Below, piece after piece: positions 53,540 to 63,132 of a stretch of 64,000 nucleotides of DNA (positions are counted from its first letter, which is position 1; each line of letters starts with the position of its first letter). Position numbers and translations under genes: made by a program. The notes under the pieces are model-generated. The model saw only the letters and a program-made list of their open reading frames with translations. It did no database searches and was not told where the DNA came from. Origin of the DNA: Methanothermobacter tenebrarum (GTDB lineage Archaea; Methanobacteriota; Methanobacteria; Methanobacteriales; DSM-23052); assembly GCF_003264935.1 (NCBI RefSeq), contig NZ_QLOE01000005.1:1-64000 (forward strand), read 5' to 3'.

Positions 53540-55357
53540 TTATCTTAGTTGGGGGGATAAAATTTTTTGGTTATTGCGCAGTCCATTGAGGATTACTGCG
53601 AGTGAAAGTCCCATATCACCGATGCCCACAGCCATCCATAATGATACTAATCCAAAGATTGAAAGAAGGGCCAGGGATCCCTTAACGAGTATTGAGAAGA
53701 ATATGTTCTCTTTAACTATTCTCATGGTTCTTCTCCCTAGTTCTATTATTTGGTGGATTTTCATGAGGTCATCGTCGATTAGCACTATATCTGCGGTGTC
53801 AAGGGCTATGTCAGAGCCTCTGGTCCCCATCGCGATCCCGACGTCTGCCGCTACAAGGGCTGGGGCGTCGTTTATACCGTCACCGACCATGGCAACCCTC
53901 CCCTTAGATTTTAGATTTTCTATGAAATCGAATTTGTCCTCTGGGAGCAAGCCTCCAATGTATTTGTCAATTTTAAGTTTCCTTGCTAGTTTCTCCGCGA
54001 CTTTTGGATTATCTCCTGTTAGGATCATTGCCTTGATATTTTCCTGGGATAACCTTTGGATTAGGGTGGGGGCTGATGGTCTCATTTTATCTTCTAATGT
54101 TATTTCCCCGATGATTTTACCATCACTTTCTAGGAGGATGGATGTGTTCTCGGTTTTCTGCCGAGTGTTCTGGCCTAGGAAGTACAACTTACCATCTATC
54201 CTGCCAGAAATGCCATATCCTGGCTTATATTCTAAATCCTCGACTTTTAATGGCTCCAAGCCTTTTTCATCTGCCAGTTTGGTTATCGCCTCCGCTATTG
54301 GATGTTTTAAACCTTTTTCTAGTGAAGCTGCAATCTTTAATATGTTAGCATTATTGTATGCCTTTATTTCTTTTACTGTTAGTTCACCTTGTGTTAGCGT
54401 CCCTGTCTTATCAAATACAATAGTTTTTATCTTTGACATTTCTTCAAGGTGACTTGAGCCTTTAATTAATATCCCTTTTCTTGTGGCCGCTGTTATCCCT
54501 GATATCATAGCAACTGGTACTGATATTACAAGGGCGCAAGGACATGCGATCACCATTAATACAAGGGCTCGGTATATCCAAGTTTCTGGGTTGCCTATGA
54601 TCAGACTTGGGATTATACCTGTTAATATGCTTGCTATTATAATTGTTGGCGTGTAATATGATGCGAATTTCTCCATGAAAACTTCCCTAGATGATCTTCT
54701 CATCCTAGCCTTTTCTATCAATTCTATGACCCTTGCTATGATTGTCCTTTCAGAATTCCTTGTGACCTTAACTTCAAGGTAGCCTCCAAGGTTTATTGTA
54801 CCTGCCAATACTTCATCCCCAACAGTCATATGAACTGGCTCGGATTCTCCTGTAATATTTGATTGGTCAACATAACTTGAACCATCTATTATCCTCCCAT
54901 CCAAGGGTATCATGTCCCCTGGGCGTATGACCATTATCTCCCCTGGTTGCACTCTACTAGCATCCACCTTAACCTCTTTTTTCCCAATTTTTATCGTTGC
55001 TATTTCTGGTTTGAGTTGCATTAAGCCCTTTATAGATTCATGTGCCTGGCCGGTCGCATATTCTTCTAGGTATTCTGCAATATAATATAAGAAAACTATG
55101 ATAGCTGCCTCAGGATAGTCCCCAAGTGAATATGCTCCTATAACCGCTAATGTGATGAGAAGATTTATTGTGAATTTACCATGATAGAGTGCTAGGATGG
55201 CCCCTTTGAATGTTTCTAGGCCTGATACAAGAACAGTTAGTGTGAATAGTATGAAAGCAGGTAGCATATACCCACTATATTGTAGGTAGAATCCTATGAT
55301 AAATAAGATGGCGGATATGAGTATGGTTTTCTTGTCTTTTCCATTATTACAAGGCAT
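53540..55357 (-). CDS. P1B-2 heavy-metal transporting ATPase (Zn/Cd export type)
   Basis: The P-type motifs are complete: DKTGTLTQGE with the phosphorylated Asp, TGES, and GDGINDAPAL. The transport site is CPC in ACPCALV, and the last helices carry N-x7-K (ENIFFSILVKG) and GDMG, which together mark the P1B-2 (zinc, cadmium, lead) subclass. There is no N-terminal metal-binding domain. ATG 55357 with GAGGT upstream is preferred over TTG 55369. It is encoded directly after a PfkB kinase gene. Confidence 0.92.
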   Translation of the reverse strand: MPCNNGKDKKTILISAILFIIGFYLQYSGYMLPAFILFTLTVLVSGLETFKGAILALYHGKFTINLLITLAVIGAYSLGDYPEAAIIVFLYYIAEYLEEYATGQAHESIKGLMQLKPEIATIKIGKKEVKVDASRVQPGEIMVIRPGDMIPLDGRIIDGSSYVDQSNITGESEPVHMTVGDEVLAGTINLGGYLEVKVTRNSERTIIARVIELIEKARMRRSSREVFMEKFASYYTPTIIIASILTGIIPSLIIGNPETWIYRALVLMVIACPCALVISVPVAMISGITAATRKGILIKGSSHLEEMSKIKTIVFDKTGTLTQGELTVKEIKAYNNANILKIAASLEKGLKHPIAEAITKLADEKGLEPLKVEDLEYKPGYGISGRIDGKLYFLGQNTRQKTENTSILLESDGKIIGEITLEDKMRPSAPTLIQRLSQENIKAMILTGDNPKVAEKLARKLKIDKYIGGLLPEDKFDFIENLKSKGRVAMVGDGINDAPALVAADVGIAMGTRGSDIALDTADIVLIDDDLMKIHQIIELGRRTMRIVKENIFFSILVKGSLALLSIFGLVSLWMAVGIGDMGLSLAVILNGLRNNQKILSPQLR

Positions 55358-55369
55358 AGGTGACCTCAA

Positions 55370-56278
55370 TTATTTTTTTAGTATTCTTGTAGCTTCACTT
55401 GAGGGTAGTGTGGTGGTTGCACCGTATCCTTGTATACAATGGGATGCTATATAATTTCCGAAGTAGCATGAGGTTTTGAGGTCATGGCCCATGAGCCATG
55501 CATATAGGAATCCTGCGTTGAATGCGTCACCAGCCCCAGTTGTGTCCACACATTCAACTTTTAAGGCTGGTACTTCCACTTCTAGGTCGTCCATGAGCCC
55601 ATAAACCCCCAAGGAGCCCCTTTTTATGATGATAATATCAACTTCATCTGCTAGGAGTTTCGCAGCCTCCTTATAGGATCCACGGTAGCCTAGCATCACC
55701 TTAATTTCCATCTCATTTAATAATAGGACGTTAACGGCCTCTATGAGCCTTCTAAGAGATTTTATCCCCCTTTTGGCGTATAGGTTTCCCGGGTCTAGGC
55801 TTATAAGCGGCCTAGATGATAATCTCTCAAGTAATGTTTCCTGGACTTTTAGACCTTCACCTGCAAATGATGTTAAGTGTAATAATTTGCTATTCTCTAC
55901 TAGTTCGATTTTTATTTCATCAATTTTTATGGTGTCATTTACGCCAGGGTCTAGATAGAGTGCTCTTTGCCCATTTTCATCCACGAAGCCTATTACTTTA
56001 CCGCTTCTACCCTCTTTTGTGATGATTAAAAGATCCAAGTTAACCTTTTCCCTTTCAAGGTTTTCTTTAAGTTTAACGCCCTCTCTGTCCATGGCCACCT
56101 TACCAATGTATGCAGTTTTAAGGCCTAATTTTGAAAGTCCTATGATAGTATTAGCTGCGGAACCGCCACAACTTTCCTTAAAACTTCTGATTATGGTCTC
56201 TTCTTCCGGGCCTATAATCCTATCAACCATGTAGAGTTGATCCATGTTAAGGGCTCCGAAGCCTACCACATCGAACAT
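55370..56278 (-). CDS. PfkB family carbohydrate or nucleoside kinase
   Basis: The 302-residue kinase has the PfkB start (VVGFGALNMDQLYMVD), the substrate-binding GGSAANTIIGLSKLG near residue 38, and the C-terminal signature VDTTGAGDAFNAGF (about 245-258) with the catalytic Asp. The family phosphorylates sugars or nucleosides; the nucleoside-kinase branch common in methanogens is a good guess. It follows the ftr gene by 28 bases and precedes the metal ATPase. Confidence 0.85.
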   Translation of the reverse strand: MFDVVGFGALNMDQLYMVDRIIGPEEETIIRSFKESCGGSAANTIIGLSKLGLKTAYIGKVAMDREGVKLKENLEREKVNLDLLIITKEGRSGKVIGFVDENGQRALYLDPGVNDTIKIDEIKIELVENSKLLHLTSFAGEGLKVQETLLERLSSRPLISLDPGNLYAKRGIKSLRRLIEAVNVLLLNEMEIKVMLGYRGSYKEAAKLLADEVDIIIIKRGSLGVYGLMDDLEVEVPALKVECVDTTGAGDAFNAGFLYAWLMGHDLKTSCYFGNYIASHCIQGYGATTTLPSSEATRILKK

Positions 56279-56306
56279 TTAACATCCCCAAAAAAAATTA
56301 TTAATC

Positions 56307-57197
56307 CTAGAAGATTTCATGGAGGAATATCTTATCATCACCTAGTTTACCCTCGTAGTTGCCGGCTGAAACCCTTATCACACCATCAAATTCTGAAACG
56401 GCATTCACACCCACTCTAAGGGCTTCTATGACTTTTTTTCTGGAAAGTCCGTTTATTACTATCTCTGGTATGTATTTAACCCCATCTGGGACTTTGGATT
56501 CCTTGCCTAGTCTTGTTTTTAGTGATGGACAGTATGGATGGTTTGTTGTGGGGCCTATCCATGGGTACTTTGTTTCGGGCTTTGATGGGGCTGAACAGAT
56601 ATCAAATGGTGTTATAACCTTATCCACTCTACTTATGGCTTCTATGGCACTTTTACCCGCTTCTAGGACCGATTCTTTATCCTTGCACATGTACCAGAAG
56701 TTGGCACCCATTATACCTGTCTGGTATCCTAGCCTGGCTTCTATTTTGAAGTCTGGCACTGCTATGGGTACTATTATCATCTCTCTTCCATGAATGGTTT
56801 CTATCCATTCGTATCCATCACCACAATGTCCAACGTGCTTCATCATGTCAATGTAACCTTCTGCTTCTAAACTTGCATCAAATAGGCTTGTGAACGGCTT
56901 CACTAGGATGTCTTGCCTTATCCTATAAGATAATTCCACCTCAAATTTTTCCATGTTATCAAGGGCGAAATAGAATTGTAGAATAGCACCATGTCTAGAA
57001 TCTGGGGTCATGTCAGGATCCAGGAAAGATTCAACGCCACTTTCTAATCTTCCTATTACCGCTGCGGGTGTGGAAGTGGCATCATATGCCGCTCTTTTAA
57101 CTGTTCTTTTGTCGTGGGCGGTTACTATGGCCCTTACACATTTACCCTTAAAGGTTTCACAGAATGTATCCTCTATGATTGTACCGTTGATCTTCAC
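56307..57197 (-). CDS. ftr: formylmethanofuran--tetrahydromethanopterin formyltransferase
   Basis: The 296-residue enzyme transfers the formyl group from formylmethanofuran to tetrahydromethanopterin, the second step of CO2 reduction to methane. Sequence marks along its length include [40 protein letters not shown] and [14 protein letters not shown] 57197 overlaps the TAG of the upstream HAD gene. It lies downstream of ehaA and the HAD gene, as the second ftr of Methanothermobacter does in the Eha operon (recalled from memory), so it is likely that paralog rather than the main one. Confidence 0.95.
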
Positions 57198-58222
57198 TAT
57201 CCTAGGCCTCCTATGGCTTCCCCCCTGACCCTTTTACGCATTTGGAGGCTCTCCTCTGCTATCTCTTCTATGTTATCATCTGGGATGAGTATTCTTGGGA
57301 ACTTTTTCTTGGATGTTTCCATGAATTTTTCGAAAATATTATAGCTTATCCTAAAGTTTTCCAAGGCTCTTTCAGGGTCCATTGTGTAAGCTTTCACGAA
57401 TTCTATGATATAGTCTCTGCCGAAACGTGAATGTAAATCTGCTATCAGAGCTAATGGGAGGGCGTTCTCTGCTATGATGACTATATCAGCTTCCCTTACA
57501 GCGTAATGGTTCCCATTGAAGGATACGGCCAAGCCGCGCCCCCTTGTATACCTGAGGGGTTCCACATCGGTTATACTATCCCCTATATATAATGTTGACT
57601 TTATGGGGAGTTTTTCCTTTTTGAGTATTTCTTTGAGGGCTAGGCGTTTACCCTCTCCTCCCACTGTCTTAACATCCTCTATGAGTTTACCTATCCTCAT
57701 CTGGGGTATTTCCTCGAAGAATATTTTGTCCATTGTCTCGAAATCAGCGCCCTCTACTATCATGTCTTTGAATTGGAATAGTTTCTCCCTTTCATCCTCG
57801 GGGAGTTCGTGTGAGTCTATGTCAAGGCTTGTATAATATGTGTTCTCGAGGGGGAAGTTGATGAGGTTACAGAGGGCTTCAATGTATTGCTTGTAACTTG
57901 TGCTTATGATATAGGATGGCATGAGTCCTTGGACTCGTTGTAGTAGTTCGCGCGCCCATGGGACTAGGCTGATATTTTCCTTGGAGAATTCCACTATCTT
58001 ATCATTGGTAACATTATAGGCTTTTAGGAATGGGGTGATGAGTTTAAGGGTGTCACCCGCATTATAACCTGGTCTTTTAATCTCATATGCTAGTATATCA
58101 TCGTATTTGCTCACTGCCGCGAAGAATTTGTCACCATCTGGTATGAAATGGCTTGCGAGTTCGAATGCATTGTCGTTAAGTGAAATAGGACCCTCACAGT
58201 CTGTTACAAATAATTTTTTCAT
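57197..58222 (-). CDS. HAD-like protein of the Eha operon (EhaR-like)
   Basis: The protein is a HAD-superfamily phosphatase-like chain. Motif I is VTDCEGP (Asp7, with Glu at the second acidic position), and motif IV is [14 protein letters not shown]; helical cap segments lie between. It has the length (341) and start of the protein I know as EhaR in the Eha energy-converting hydrogenase operon. GGTGATC lies just upstream of ATG 58222, directly next to a C/G hairpin. Function is unproven; a role in cofactor handling or regulation is possible. Confidence 0.75.
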
Positions 58223-58231
58223 TTGGGATCA

Positions 58232-58247
58232 CCCCCCCACAAGGGGG
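58232..58247 (-). promoter_or_regulatory. C/G-run hairpin abutting the ribosome site of the HAD gene
   Basis: On the minus strand CCCCC, a TTGT loop and GGGGGGG are followed directly by TGATCC, so the G run forms the first half of the Shine-Dalgarno GGGTGAT. Folding would hide the ribosome site. It lies in the 33-base spacer between ehaA and the HAD gene. Confidence 0.5.
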
Positions 58248-58255
58248 ATATTATC

Positions 58256-58543
58256 CTATCCTGGATGGAATGGGGGTCTGGGGAAGATGTTCTCTATGAT
58301 ATATTTTACTAGGAGGGCTGATAATATCCCCATAATGAGGCCTAGATCTAGGGTATTATAGAATCCTCTGAATCCCAATTTTAGGGATACTGCGAGGAGG
58401 CCTGCTGCGATTATGGGTGTTGGGAATATCACTGTTAAAGTCCATGAGCGTCTCCATGGTCTTTCAGCTACAATTGGGAGCCCGAGGAGTGAAGCTACAA
58501 TGATGGCTGATACTATCGCGATCAAGTAACTAAAGAGGATCAT
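58256..58543 (-). CDS. ehaA: energy-converting hydrogenase A subunit A (EhaA)
   Basis: From ATG 58543 this is a 95-residue membrane protein with three helices. The first ends with LGLPIVAERPWRRSWTLT, then VIFPTPIIAAGLLAVSLKLGF, and the last is near GLIMGILSALLVKYI before FPRPPFHPG. The RPWR-SWT-x-VIFPTP pattern is that of EhaA. The start is chosen because a TATA box lies 27 bases upstream and fits a leaderless mRNA; the longer frame from 58660 is unlikely. In relatives, ehaA is followed by many eha genes, but here the next gene is EhaR-like. Confidence 0.82.
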   Translation of the reverse strand: MILFSYLIAIVSAIIVASLLGLPIVAERPWRRSWTLTVIFPTPIIAAGLLAVSLKLGFRGFYNTLDLGLIMGILSALLVKYIIENIFPRPPFHPG

Positions 58544-58565
58544 ATTAAAAAGATGAAAATTTAAA

Positions 58566-58574
58566 ATATATAAA
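58566..58574 (-). promoter_or_regulatory. TATA box for ehaA (leaderless promoter)
   Basis: The minus-strand TTTATATAT core lies about 27 bases upstream of ATG 58543, and no Shine-Dalgarno precedes that ATG. Transcription probably starts at the start codon. Confidence 0.6.
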
Positions 58575-58633
58575 ATTTTTCCAAGAATAATCCTATGATT
58601 TGCGGAACTTTTACCCCAAAAGATAAAATCATG

Positions 58634-58646
58634 CCCCCATAGGGGG
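58634..58646. repeat. tight C5/G5 palindrome in the ehaA/DUF1616 divergent spacer
   Basis: CCCCC, ATA and GGGGG form a palindrome, next to a TATATTTA element at 58648-58655 that could be the promoter for the genes at 58695 and 58778. Confidence 0.4.
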
Positions 58647-58694
58647 ATATATTTATCCACTCTAATAATCTAATGATTGAGGAGAAAGCATAGT

Positions 58695-58775
58695 ATGAAA
58701 ACTGATGTTCGTGAGATTGATCATATCAACCAGTATATCCAAATTCACATCTTTGCTCCTTGGGAGGCAAGTTGA
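58695..58775 (+). CDS. possible 26-residue leader peptide upstream of the DUF1616 gene
   Basis: ATG 58695 has GAGGAGA nine bases upstream and opens a 26-codon frame (MKTDVREIDHINQYIQ...) ending at TGA 58773-58775. The stop overlaps TTG 58772 and lies two bases before ATG 58778, the two possible starts of the next gene, so translation could be coupled. No known peptide family is recognised and it may be chance. Confidence 0.4.
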   Translation: MKTDVREIDHINQYIQIHIFAPWEAS

Positions 58776-58777
58776 TC

Positions 58778-60127
58778 ATGACATCTGAGCATGAAGAAAT
58801 TTTAAGGTTCCATCAATCTTCAAAGGATCTTTTCGTTGTAGTTGTCTCAGCCTTCATACTCTTAGTATTTCTACAATTCCCATATAAGTTTTGGATCCTC
58901 AGAAGCTTGATTATAGGATTTAACATTTTTTTAATAATAGGATATTCTATAATATCATTTTTCTCCCTCAAGTTTCAAGAGAAAAGATTATCTTTGAGGC
59001 TGATCCTAAGCATCCCCCTGAGTCTGGTGATAATAATAGCATTCGATTATCTACCATTGGATAACCATGGGATCCTCAGACTATCAGCTATAATATCAAT
59101 TATAGCAGGGATACTAGCATATGCTAGGAGACGTAGAAGGCAAGATATGATAAGAAGGTCCTTGAAAGAAGCCGGAATAGATGAAAAGAATATCATAAGC
59201 CCATCAGAGGCTGCTAAGATAGCTATAGAACGACATGAAAGGTTATCCAGGGGGGATGAGCTTGAAAGGGCATTCCCACCAGAAGAATATTTCAAAATCG
59301 AAGAAAAAAAAGAAAAGCCAAAACTAGGATCCTACGCAGACCTCATACTCATCCTCATATTCACAATAATAACAATGATTTCACCAATCAAATGGCCACT
59401 TGGAATATTCATGATGATACTAATACCTGGTTATCTACTCATAGCAATCCTAGCACCAAAAAAGGGAACCATAAACTCCTATGAAAGACTATTCCTAAGT
59501 TTCACACTGAGTATAATCATAAGCGCTATCATAAGCCTAATCCTAAAAAAACCTTCAAACCTTGTCATCACAGAAACATCCTGCAGATTGTCCATTCTCT
59601 TAACAATAACATCCCTCATAATAAGATCGAAGACTAAACCCACTGAAAGATTTTACTGGAACCCCGTCAAATCCATTGAAAGGATTAAAGACACGCGCTT
59701 GAAAAAGAACCAGATAGTATCACTCATATTACTCATCATCCTCATTTCAATGATAGGAGTTACTATTAACACCATAATTTTAAATCCAGTCCCGTCAGAA
59801 AGATTCACAGAATTTTACATCCTCGGACCCACAGGAAAAGCATATGATTACCCAACAAACCTAAGAATAGGCGAAACTGGGGAAGTAATTATAGGAGTTG
59901 TAAACCATGAATACCAGACCACAGACTATAGAATAATCGTTAAAATGGGCGAAGAAGTCATAGACAATACCACAATAACATTAAAAAACGGTGAAAAGTG
60001 GGAGAAACGCTTTAAATTCACCCCAAAAGAGGCTGGGGACAATCAAAAACTCCAATTTTTATTATATCGTCTGCCAGATGAAGAAAGAGTTTACAGGTCG
60101 CTCCACCTCTTCGTGAATGTGAAATAA
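58778..60127 (+). CDS. DUF1616 membrane protein
   Basis: The protein of about 450 residues has N-terminal helices (about four), a charged cytoplasmic linker with an RRRRR cluster and an ERHERLSRGDELERAF segment, further helices (about 190-330) and a C-terminal external beta domain of about 110 residues (GPTGKAYDYPTNLRIGETGEV in parts, then NHEYQTTDYRI). This is the DUF1616 layout seen near surface-glycan genes of methanogens. ATG 58778 or TTG 58772 are possible starts; GGGAGG at 58761-58766 is closer to the TTG. The epimerase gene follows 14 bases later. Confidence 0.75.
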   Translation: MTSEHEEILRFHQSSKDLFVVVVSAFILLVFLQFPYKFWILRSLIIGFNIFLIIGYSIISFFSLKFQEKRLSLRLILSIPLSLVIIIAFDYLPLDNHGILRLSAIISIIAGILAYARRRRRQDMIRRSLKEAGIDEKNIISPSEAAKIAIERHERLSRGDELERAFPPEEYFKIEEKKEKPKLGSYADLILILIFTIITMISPIKWPLGIFMMILIPGYLLIAILAPKKGTINSYERLFLSFTLSIIISAIISLILKKPSNLVITETSCRLSILLTITSLIIRSKTKPTERFYWNPVKSIERIKDTRLKKNQIVSLILLIILISMIGVTINTIILNPVPSERFTEFYILGPTGKAYDYPTNLRIGETGEVIIGVVNHEYQTTDYRIIVKMGEEVIDNTTITLKNGEKWEKRFKFTPKEAGDNQKLQFLLYRLPDEERVYRSLHLFVNVK

Positions 60128-61506: not shown

Positions 61507-63132
61507 GTGGGAGGCGATAATATTTCGACTGGTATAACAGTACTATGCATGCTATGCATGGTACTGGCAGCAGTAGGTACCAGTTACGCCCAAGAAAACA
61601 CAACCACAAACTTTGAAATGCATGATAACAATGCGCAATTAAGCGAAGAGAAAATCAACGAAACCCCCACCATTATGGGAAAAAACCCCAAAGTCAATGA
61701 AACAAGCCAACAGGCAGCATATAACGATGAAGAGAATGTAAAGGCCGTGGAACCCTCAGATATCGAGGATGCGGCGGTCCGGGTTAACAAGTTCGTCCAA
61801 GAGAACGGAAAACTCCCAAAGTATGTGAGAATCAAAAATTCAGAGGTTAGCATGCCAGAATACTTATACCTCCTCACAGCATCCCTAAAAGGTGGGGATA
61901 CCATCATAAAGAACGTGGAACCACCCGAAAACTCCACTGGAAGCACAGTGGCTGGTTCAATAAAATTAAATGACTACCTCGAACTTGCAAATAGGGTGTA
62001 CAATTTCATAAAATCAGAAAATAGAGCACCCTCCTATGCAACCTACCAAGGCTTTAAAATCAGATTCGAATCCCTCGTATGGCTATTCACAAAAGCCATC
62101 AACTTCAAAGTAACAAATCAACGCCTGCCCAATTATATAGACCTTGAAAAACTTAATAAAATAGGCACATACACTATAGACAATAACAATCCAAGCAGCA
62201 CCTCAGGAAGTGCTGCTAATGGCAATTCAATAGCTATCAAAGACATCCTAAATGCCGCAGTTTCACTTAAAAGTTTCATAGAAAAAAATCAGCGCCTACC
62301 CACATATGTGCAGGTGGCAAATCAAAAAATAAACTTGAACCAATTCCTATACCTCATGGCTAAAAGCATAAACCAAATAAATAACGGGAAAAACACACCC
62401 ATCAGCCTAATAGAAGCTAATGACGCGCCAAACCCTTCGGGGACCACTACAGGCGAGCTTAAACTCACAGAATATGTTCAAGTCGCGAAGAATGTCGCAG
62501 ATTTCATTGAAACCAATAGAAGATCACCAAATTATGTCACGACAAGTATTGGGAAAGTATACTATCCCACTATAATCTATGCTATGAGCAGAATACTTAC
62601 ATTCTACAAGGAAAATAACAGATTACCTAAAATAGTAACAATAAAAGGGGTATACAATCAAAATCAGAATACAAACAATGAAATTAGCCAGTATCTTGTC
62701 GCCACAGCAAACTGTCAGGTGAACGATCCTAGTATCCAAGCATTAGCGGCCCAGTTAACCAATGGCCTTACAAGCGAATGGGATAAGGCCAAAGCCGTCT
62801 TTAACTGGGTCAGAGACAACATAGACTACAGCTTCTATTATAATACGAAGTACGGTGCTGTCGGAACCCTCAGGTATCGGACTGCTAACTGTTGTGACCA
62901 TGCGCATCTTGTTGTGGCACTTGCAAGGGCAGCTGGGTTACCAGCACGATACAAACATGGGATCTGCACATTCTCCAGCGGAACCTATGGACATGTCTGG
63001 GCGCAAATCTACATTGGGGGTACATGGTACGATGCAGATGCAACAAGCATCAGAAACAGTCTTGGCGTAATAAACAATTGGAACACAACAACCGGGAAAA
63101 TACTAGGAACCTACGCAAGCCTACCATTTTAA
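61507..63132 (+). CDS. secreted pseudomurein-binding protein with transglutaminase-type peptidase domain
   Basis: The 541-residue protein has a signal peptide (about 1-28, ending TSYAQ), a Ser/Thr/Asn-rich linker, four pseudomurein-binding repeats (about 86-129, 151-200, 241-290 and 318-379; each with a helix, an R/K-LP-x-Y-V/I turn and a YLxxxS-type helix) and a C-terminal transglutaminase-like domain (about 425-541). The catalytic triad reads as Cys462 in ANCCDHAH, His496 in GHVWAQ and Asp511 in WYDADAT. This is the arrangement of phage pseudomurein endoisopeptidases PeiW and PeiP, so it may cleave wall peptides during growth. GTG 61507 is the longest start; the GGGAGG inside it suggests a later start. 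Confidence 0.88.
   Translation: MGGDNISTGITVLCMLCMVLAAVGTSYAQENTTTNFEMHDNNAQLSEEKINETPTIMGKNPKVNETSQQAAYNDEENVKAVEPSDIEDAAVRVNKFVQENGKLPKYVRIKNSEVSMPEYLYLLTASLKGGDTIIKNVEPPENSTGSTVAGSIKLNDYLELANRVYNFIKSENRAPSYATYQGFKIRFESLVWLFTKAINFKVTNQRLPNYIDLEKLNKIGTYTIDNNNPSSTSGSAANGNSIAIKDILNAAVSLKSFIEKNQRLPTYVQVANQKINLNQFLYLMAKSINQINNGKNTPISLIEANDAPNPSGTTTGELKLTEYVQVAKNVADFIETNRRSPNYVTTSIGKVYYPTIIYAMSRILTFYKENNRLPKIVTIKGVYNQNQNTNNEISQYLVATANCQVNDPSIQALAAQLTNGLTSEWDKAKAVFNWVRDNIDYSFYYNTKYGAVGTLRYRTANCCDHAHLVVALARAAGLPARYKHGICTFSSGTYGHVWAQIYIGGTWYDADATSIRNSLGVINNWNTTTGKILGTYASLPF

Follow-up and report, generated by a model that had tools for sequence, protein, structure and literature searches.

The eha genes of Methanothermobacter tenebrarum lie in two unlinked clusters that probably differ in origin

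The window analyzed here comprises the first 64,000 nucleotides of contig NZ_QLOE01000005.1 from the genome of M. tenebrarum (1.47 Mb, 20 contigs, 99.9% complete), and all positions follow its numbering. Between positions 55370 and 58543, it carries four genes related to the energy-converting hydrogenase Eha, all of them on the minus strand (Table 1). The identity of the first, ehaA, which had been proposed in a first-pass annotation of the window, is borne out by a match of 105.7 bits to the PF17367 profile (cut-off 25.5; E 1.5e-30; profile positions 10-97 of 97), and a search of the whole genome found it to be the sole copy. A TATA-like element, TTTTATATATTTT / TTTTATATATTTTAAAT, can be read about 30 bases upstream of its ATG, and a leaderless start of ehaA is plausible. 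The EhaR-like HAD gene does follow ehaA after 33 bases as annotated, and its identity rests on its position and on 57-62% identity to the gene found between ehaQ and ehaS in Methanothermobacter-like genomes (genus g19). The gene that had been labeled ftr matches PF01913, but is in fact ehaS; its product scores 217 bits against the one_C_fhcD equivalog, below the cut-off of 292.6 bits for the catalytic formyltransferase, and a better-scoring second FTR is encoded on another contig of the same genome (C2:156739-157170). Likewise, the call of a PfkB kinase holds for the last gene, but its identity as ehaT had been overlooked; ehaT comes directly after ehaS in the relatives from the order that we mapped. 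EhaS and EhaT were originally annotated as a formyltransferase and a ribokinase, and their genes are cotranscribed with ehaA-R in Methanothermobacter (PMC3087415).

Table 1. Features at and around the ehaA-ehaR-ehaS-ehaT locus of the window
Feature	Position	Strand	Description
P1B-type metal ATPase	53540-55369	-	Ancestral downstream neighbor (after CBS in g19); fd4-CBS lacking on its ehaT side
ehaT	55370-56278	-	302 aa; PfkB/ribokinase-like; PF00294, 1.5e-49
ehaS	56307-57197	-	296 aa; PF01913/PF02741; paralogue of formylmethanofuran:H4MPT formyltransferase
ehaR	57197-58222	-	341 aa; HAD-like; weak HAD match below the Pfam cut-off
ehaA/ehaR junction	58223-58255	-	33 bases; relatives have ehaB-ehaQ here (about 9-10 kb)
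ehaA	58256-58543	-	95 aa; membrane subunit A of Eha, resident type; PF17367
Putative ehaA promoter	58544-58600	-	Inferred by reading the sequence
DUF1616 membrane protein	58760-60127	+	PF07760, 5e-54; ancestral divergent upstream neighbor, same in g19

The reading frames of the four genes are open in three of the four genomes from the genus studied here (G000, G002, and G003 among G000-G003; f1). The dN/dS values computed between these three range from 0.08 to 0.14 (0.11-0.14 for ehaA and 0.08-0.09 for ehaR), which indicates that all four genes are under purifying selection and are being maintained rather than decaying. Two similar C/G-rich, palindrome-like stretches flank ehaA, ATATCCCCCTTGTGGGGG within the junction (58223-58255) and ATATCCCCCTATGGGGG at about 58625-58655. 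We considered the first of these as a recombination site and discarded it, as it is not conserved in the three sister genomes. Further upstream, the product of a plus-strand gene (61507-63132) resembles a pseudomurein endoisopeptidase: it has pseudomurein-binding-like repeats, and its C-terminus is transglutaminase-like (CCDHAHLVVALARAAG). A homologue is found nearby in G002 and G003.

As the first-pass annotation had recognized, no gene from ehaB to ehaQ lies between ehaA and ehaR in the window. Its statement that ehaA normally heads an operon with the core ahead of ehaR was equally correct: ehaA, ehaB through ehaQ, ehaR, ehaS, and ehaT are contiguous in 20/20 mapped relatives from the order (one of the stretches, L065, ends inside ehaQ), fd4-CBS comes next wherever the stretch extended that far, and ehaB directly follows ehaA in all 30 loci checked with short flanks. 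The g19 genomes, moreover, share with the window the DUF1616/epimerase flank upstream of ehaA, and in three of them (L049-L051) the P1B-ATPase follows CBS. Given this contiguous operon and these shared flanks, we take the window to hold the original eha site, from which two separate segments, ehaB-Q and fd4-CBS, are missing, and not one as had been supposed. The arrangement in the outgroup families mapped (f25, f44, and f12) consists of ehaB through ehaQ followed by fd4 and often by CBS, and EhaA adjoins the core in several of these genomes; ehaR-S-T were not found beside eha in them.

An assembly artefact can be dismissed as the source of the ehaA/ehaR junction, since the same ehaA-R-S-T order is present in G002, which is a single closed contig, and in G003, and the ehaA/ehaR junction recurs in G001 as well. 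The nearest named genome, the metagenome-assembled Methanobacteriaceae archaeon 41_258 (91%), has a contig that breaks off inside ehaR.

Eha has not been lost from M. tenebrarum: the resident cluster keeps four genes, and the catalytic core lies elsewhere on the chromosome. The genome encodes two group-4 hydrogenase large subunits. One of them is found on contig C4 in a cluster with the order ehaB-C-D-E-F-G-H-I-J-K-L-M-N-O, two polyferredoxin genes (ehaP and ehaQ), fd4, and CBS, followed by cbiMNQ; hence, the membrane subunits EhaB-L and both polyferredoxins are present. The cysteine metal-binding motifs are in place as well, as EhaO retains RICGIC and DPCIAC and EhaN carries CTGGCNGC. The other large subunit belongs to a complete-looking ehb operon on contig C2, ordinary for the order, whose EhbN is 85% identical to that of g19. 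The first-pass annotation had read the window as the loss of the Eha core by an internal deletion, with methanogenesis left to Ehb. The window locus devoid of ehaB-Q and the complete-looking ehb operon would fit this reading, but the ehaB-Q genes with intact hydrogenase motifs on C4, present likewise in the three sister genomes, make it almost certainly wrong. A deletion at the locus itself, with both ends retained and the middle gone, stands; the loss of Eha from the genome does not, and a dependence on Ehb does not follow, since ehaB-Q exist on C4 beside ehb.

No complete eha operon resides elsewhere in the genome either, as the core is on C4, yet ehaA, ehaR, ehaS, and ehaT occur only in the window. 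The two loci are thus complementary, with A, R, S, and T in the window versus B-Q, fd4, and CBS on C4, each as a single copy and in two unlinked clusters in place of one contiguous ehaA-T operon. With ehaR lying 33 bases past ehaA and ehaB on C4, the missing ehaB neighbor of ehaA is a difference in location and not in protein family. Among the matches listed, relics of ehaB-Q in the window and of A, R, S, and T at C4 reached only chance level. The core is present in 4/4 genomes of the genus, with EhaO 93-95% identical in all sister genomes, and the split is seen there as far as the contigs show. It is clearest in the closed genome of G002, in which ehaA (517 kb) and ehaO (1493 kb) are separated by about 976 kb of sequence, a distance that shrinks to 547 kb should the contig be circular. 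Elsewhere in the order, no EhaA was found among the listed genomes of genus g13 (about 20 species), and the EhaO matches of g13 and of genome G151 among the genomes listed are of Ehb strength or weaker, so that both seem to be without Eha. Ehb has been stated to be absent in Methanothermus (PMC13135261), which would be at odds with the G151 result if G151 is Methanothermus.

The two gene sets have different trees. The core proteins of the genus share 69-87% identity with those of G142, a genome of another family (family f2, genus g18), and the identities of either to the remaining members of the order are only about 30-65%; between g19 and f2, the core reaches 62-80% for many subunits, e.g., E, F, G, H, J, N, and O. 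In a concatenated EhaB-O tree, f1 and g18 come out as one clade (100), falling outside the whole set of 32 ordinary rows (100), at a deep fork shared with a Methanococci-like group. EhaQ of f1 is placed with G142 and g15, the sister genus of g18 (98-99), and the fd4+CBS tree joins f1 with G142 (99) and then with g15 (98). EhaR+S+T, by contrast, place f1 with g19 (100) and G142 with g15 (99). These trees come from quick searches, with SH-aLRT as the support measure. Approximately unbiased (AU) tests agree: for Q+fd4+CBS, a grouping of f1 with g19 is rejected (p=8.6e-5), and for R+S+T a grouping of f1 with g18 is rejected (p=3e-10). For the core, tested on 19 of the 49 rows, f1+g19 is also rejected, by a margin of 1336 log units; neither the grouping with the order (p=0.44) nor that with the Methanococci-like sequences (p=0.18) is rejected, and long branches meet here. 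The grouping of the window's R-S-T with Methanothermobacter-like genomes is as expected under vertical descent. By itself, EhaA is too short a protein to give a firm tree; the EhaA from the window has a mean identity of 49% to g19 EhaA and 39% to G142 EhaA. Since the latter adjoins the divergent core and is nevertheless so dissimilar, the EhaA from the window did not arrive with that core.

A simple translocation, in which the native ehaB-Q block was excised, reinserted elsewhere, and diverged rapidly, would account neatly for the exactly complementary gene content of the two loci. We nevertheless regard it as very improbable: a single excision leaves the move of fd4-CBS unexplained, as this pair lies beyond R-S-T; the core groups with a genome of another family, in keeping with the AU rejection of f1+g19; EhaQ, fd4, and CBS leave g19 as well; and the Ehb proteins of the genus are normal. 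Quite improbable, too, is an ancient paralogy, in which the ancestor of the order possessed two Eha types, the second being kept by f1 and g18 and lost elsewhere. Such a scenario is compatible with the deep branch of the core, and the test did not reject a single clade of all order cores, but it requires many parallel losses, the f1 versions of Q, fd4, and CBS are nested together with their g18 and g15 counterparts and are not basal, and two full EhaO-strength matches occur in no genome of the order among those listed. Replacement of the core by a xenologous one, overlooked in the first-pass annotation, is the reading that we favor.

As to the direction of transfer, the f1+g18 core clade is by itself directionless, and a passage from the genus studied into the lineage of G142 has to be weighed. 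We judge this distinctly unlikely. G15, the sister of g18 in the R-S-T tree, stands beside f1+g18 for Q and for fd4+CBS, as if f1 were the recipient, and the G142 core occupies a normal operon position together with R-S-T; a transfer from the G142/g15 side into the genus studied is consequently the better reading. The donor side is represented by a single metagenome-assembled genome, G142, of about 200 contigs, in which the core and R-S-T lie on one contig and ehaA and ehaB are joined via a contig overlap of 127 bases. G142 itself looks like a mosaic, with a divergent EhaB-O inside an operon whose Q, R, S, T, fd4, and CBS are of the order type. It carries two ehaA copies or alleles at contig ends (L107, 10002-10250; L108, 6-248), whose 3' parts are near-identical and whose 5' ends differ; the second is reported to contain an internal stop. 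Its second group-4 large subunit (L109, G142:C35, 11108-12196) shows an identity of only about 39-40% to the sampled Ehb of the order and to the Eha core of the genus, and is possibly a hydrogenase of another type that replaces Ehb in G142.

The C4 cluster occupies a site that is used differently by the relatives. Three g19 genomes have the CODH/ACS operon cdhA-B-C-cooC-D-E between cbiMNQ and GGR, with aglB also present there in two of the three; in the genus studied, ehaB-Q-fd4-CBS are enclosed by these same cbiMNQ and aglB/GGR flanks. CdhC was found in none of the four genomes of the genus, and control searches gave matches. This agrees with published reports that M. tenebrarum-like methanogens lack Cdh and need acetate (PMC5431450, PMC7074840). 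The eha cluster may have displaced cdh or may have filled an existing gap.

The data lend themselves to an evolutionary model that we consider likely in its main outline: a core of foreign origin came in, its resident counterpart was deleted, and each eha gene was kept once, in two unlinked clusters. The window would then hold the remnant of the resident, vertically inherited operon, namely ehaA, ehaR, ehaS, and ehaT. A divergent eha cluster would have been gained horizontally from a lineage related to G142 and would have settled elsewhere on the chromosome, at the CODH/ACS site of the relatives. After its arrival, the resident ehaB-Q and fd4-CBS segments would have been lost, and this reciprocal loss would have left every eha gene present once. 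Eha would be assembled in trans from the foreign core B-Q and the resident EhaA, possibly together with EhaR, EhaS, and EhaT, and its predicted activity is the reduction of ferredoxin, driven by H2 and an ion gradient, for the first step of CO2 reduction.

Whether the four retained genes still work with Eha is a separate matter. A role of their own, apart from Eha, was part of the original reading of the window; in the outgroup genomes mapped, no R, S, or T turned up next to eha, and S and T resemble enzymes. On balance, we hold such a separate role to be unlikely, as the order relatives checked and several outgroup genomes have ehaA adjacent to the core genes, and in Methanothermobacter ehaR, ehaS, and ehaT share a transcript with the rest of eha (PMC3087415). 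EhaA most likely continues to function with Eha in trans, because it is associated with the core outside the order too, and for EhaR, EhaS, and EhaT this is less certain. We therefore lean slightly toward a natural chimeric Eha, in which a core about 50% identical to the resident one replaced it, took the cdh site, and works with A, R, S, and T.

All genes of the Methanothermobacter ehaA-T operon (PMC3087415) are recognizable in M. tenebrarum, in the same order within each piece and with an Ftr-like EhaS and a ribokinase-like EhaT; unlike that operon, they form the clusters A-R-S-T and B-Q-fd4-CBS, with a core from another deep lineage. The eha operon of G142 resembles the genus in its core, but is contiguous and has its own R-S-T. 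M. tenebrarum (GCA_003264935) represents a "Methanobacteria small clade in Eha" in Figure 3A of PMC9635834, which is very probably the divergent C4 core; the divergent core clade is therefore already known. That study also raised the possibility that some Methanobacteria were affected by an ancient homologous recombination. The passages of its text consulted here mention neither the A-R-S-T remnant, the split, the conflict between the Q/fd4/CBS and R/S/T trees, nor the cdh site, and a literature search on Eha transfer within the order yielded nothing relevant beyond it.

At the level of annotation, these findings are a warning that an operon that is seen broken in a single window can still be whole when the entire genome is considered. 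Deletion of Eha was not possible in M. maripaludis (PMC3087415). A genus in which the core was swapped and A, R, S, and T were kept offers a natural test of which Eha parts must match; if the chimera is real, it shows which Eha subunits are interchangeable. The position of the new core at the site of the missing CODH/ACS may, in addition, connect it to the acetate-dependent growth of this lineage (PMC5431450, PMC7074840).
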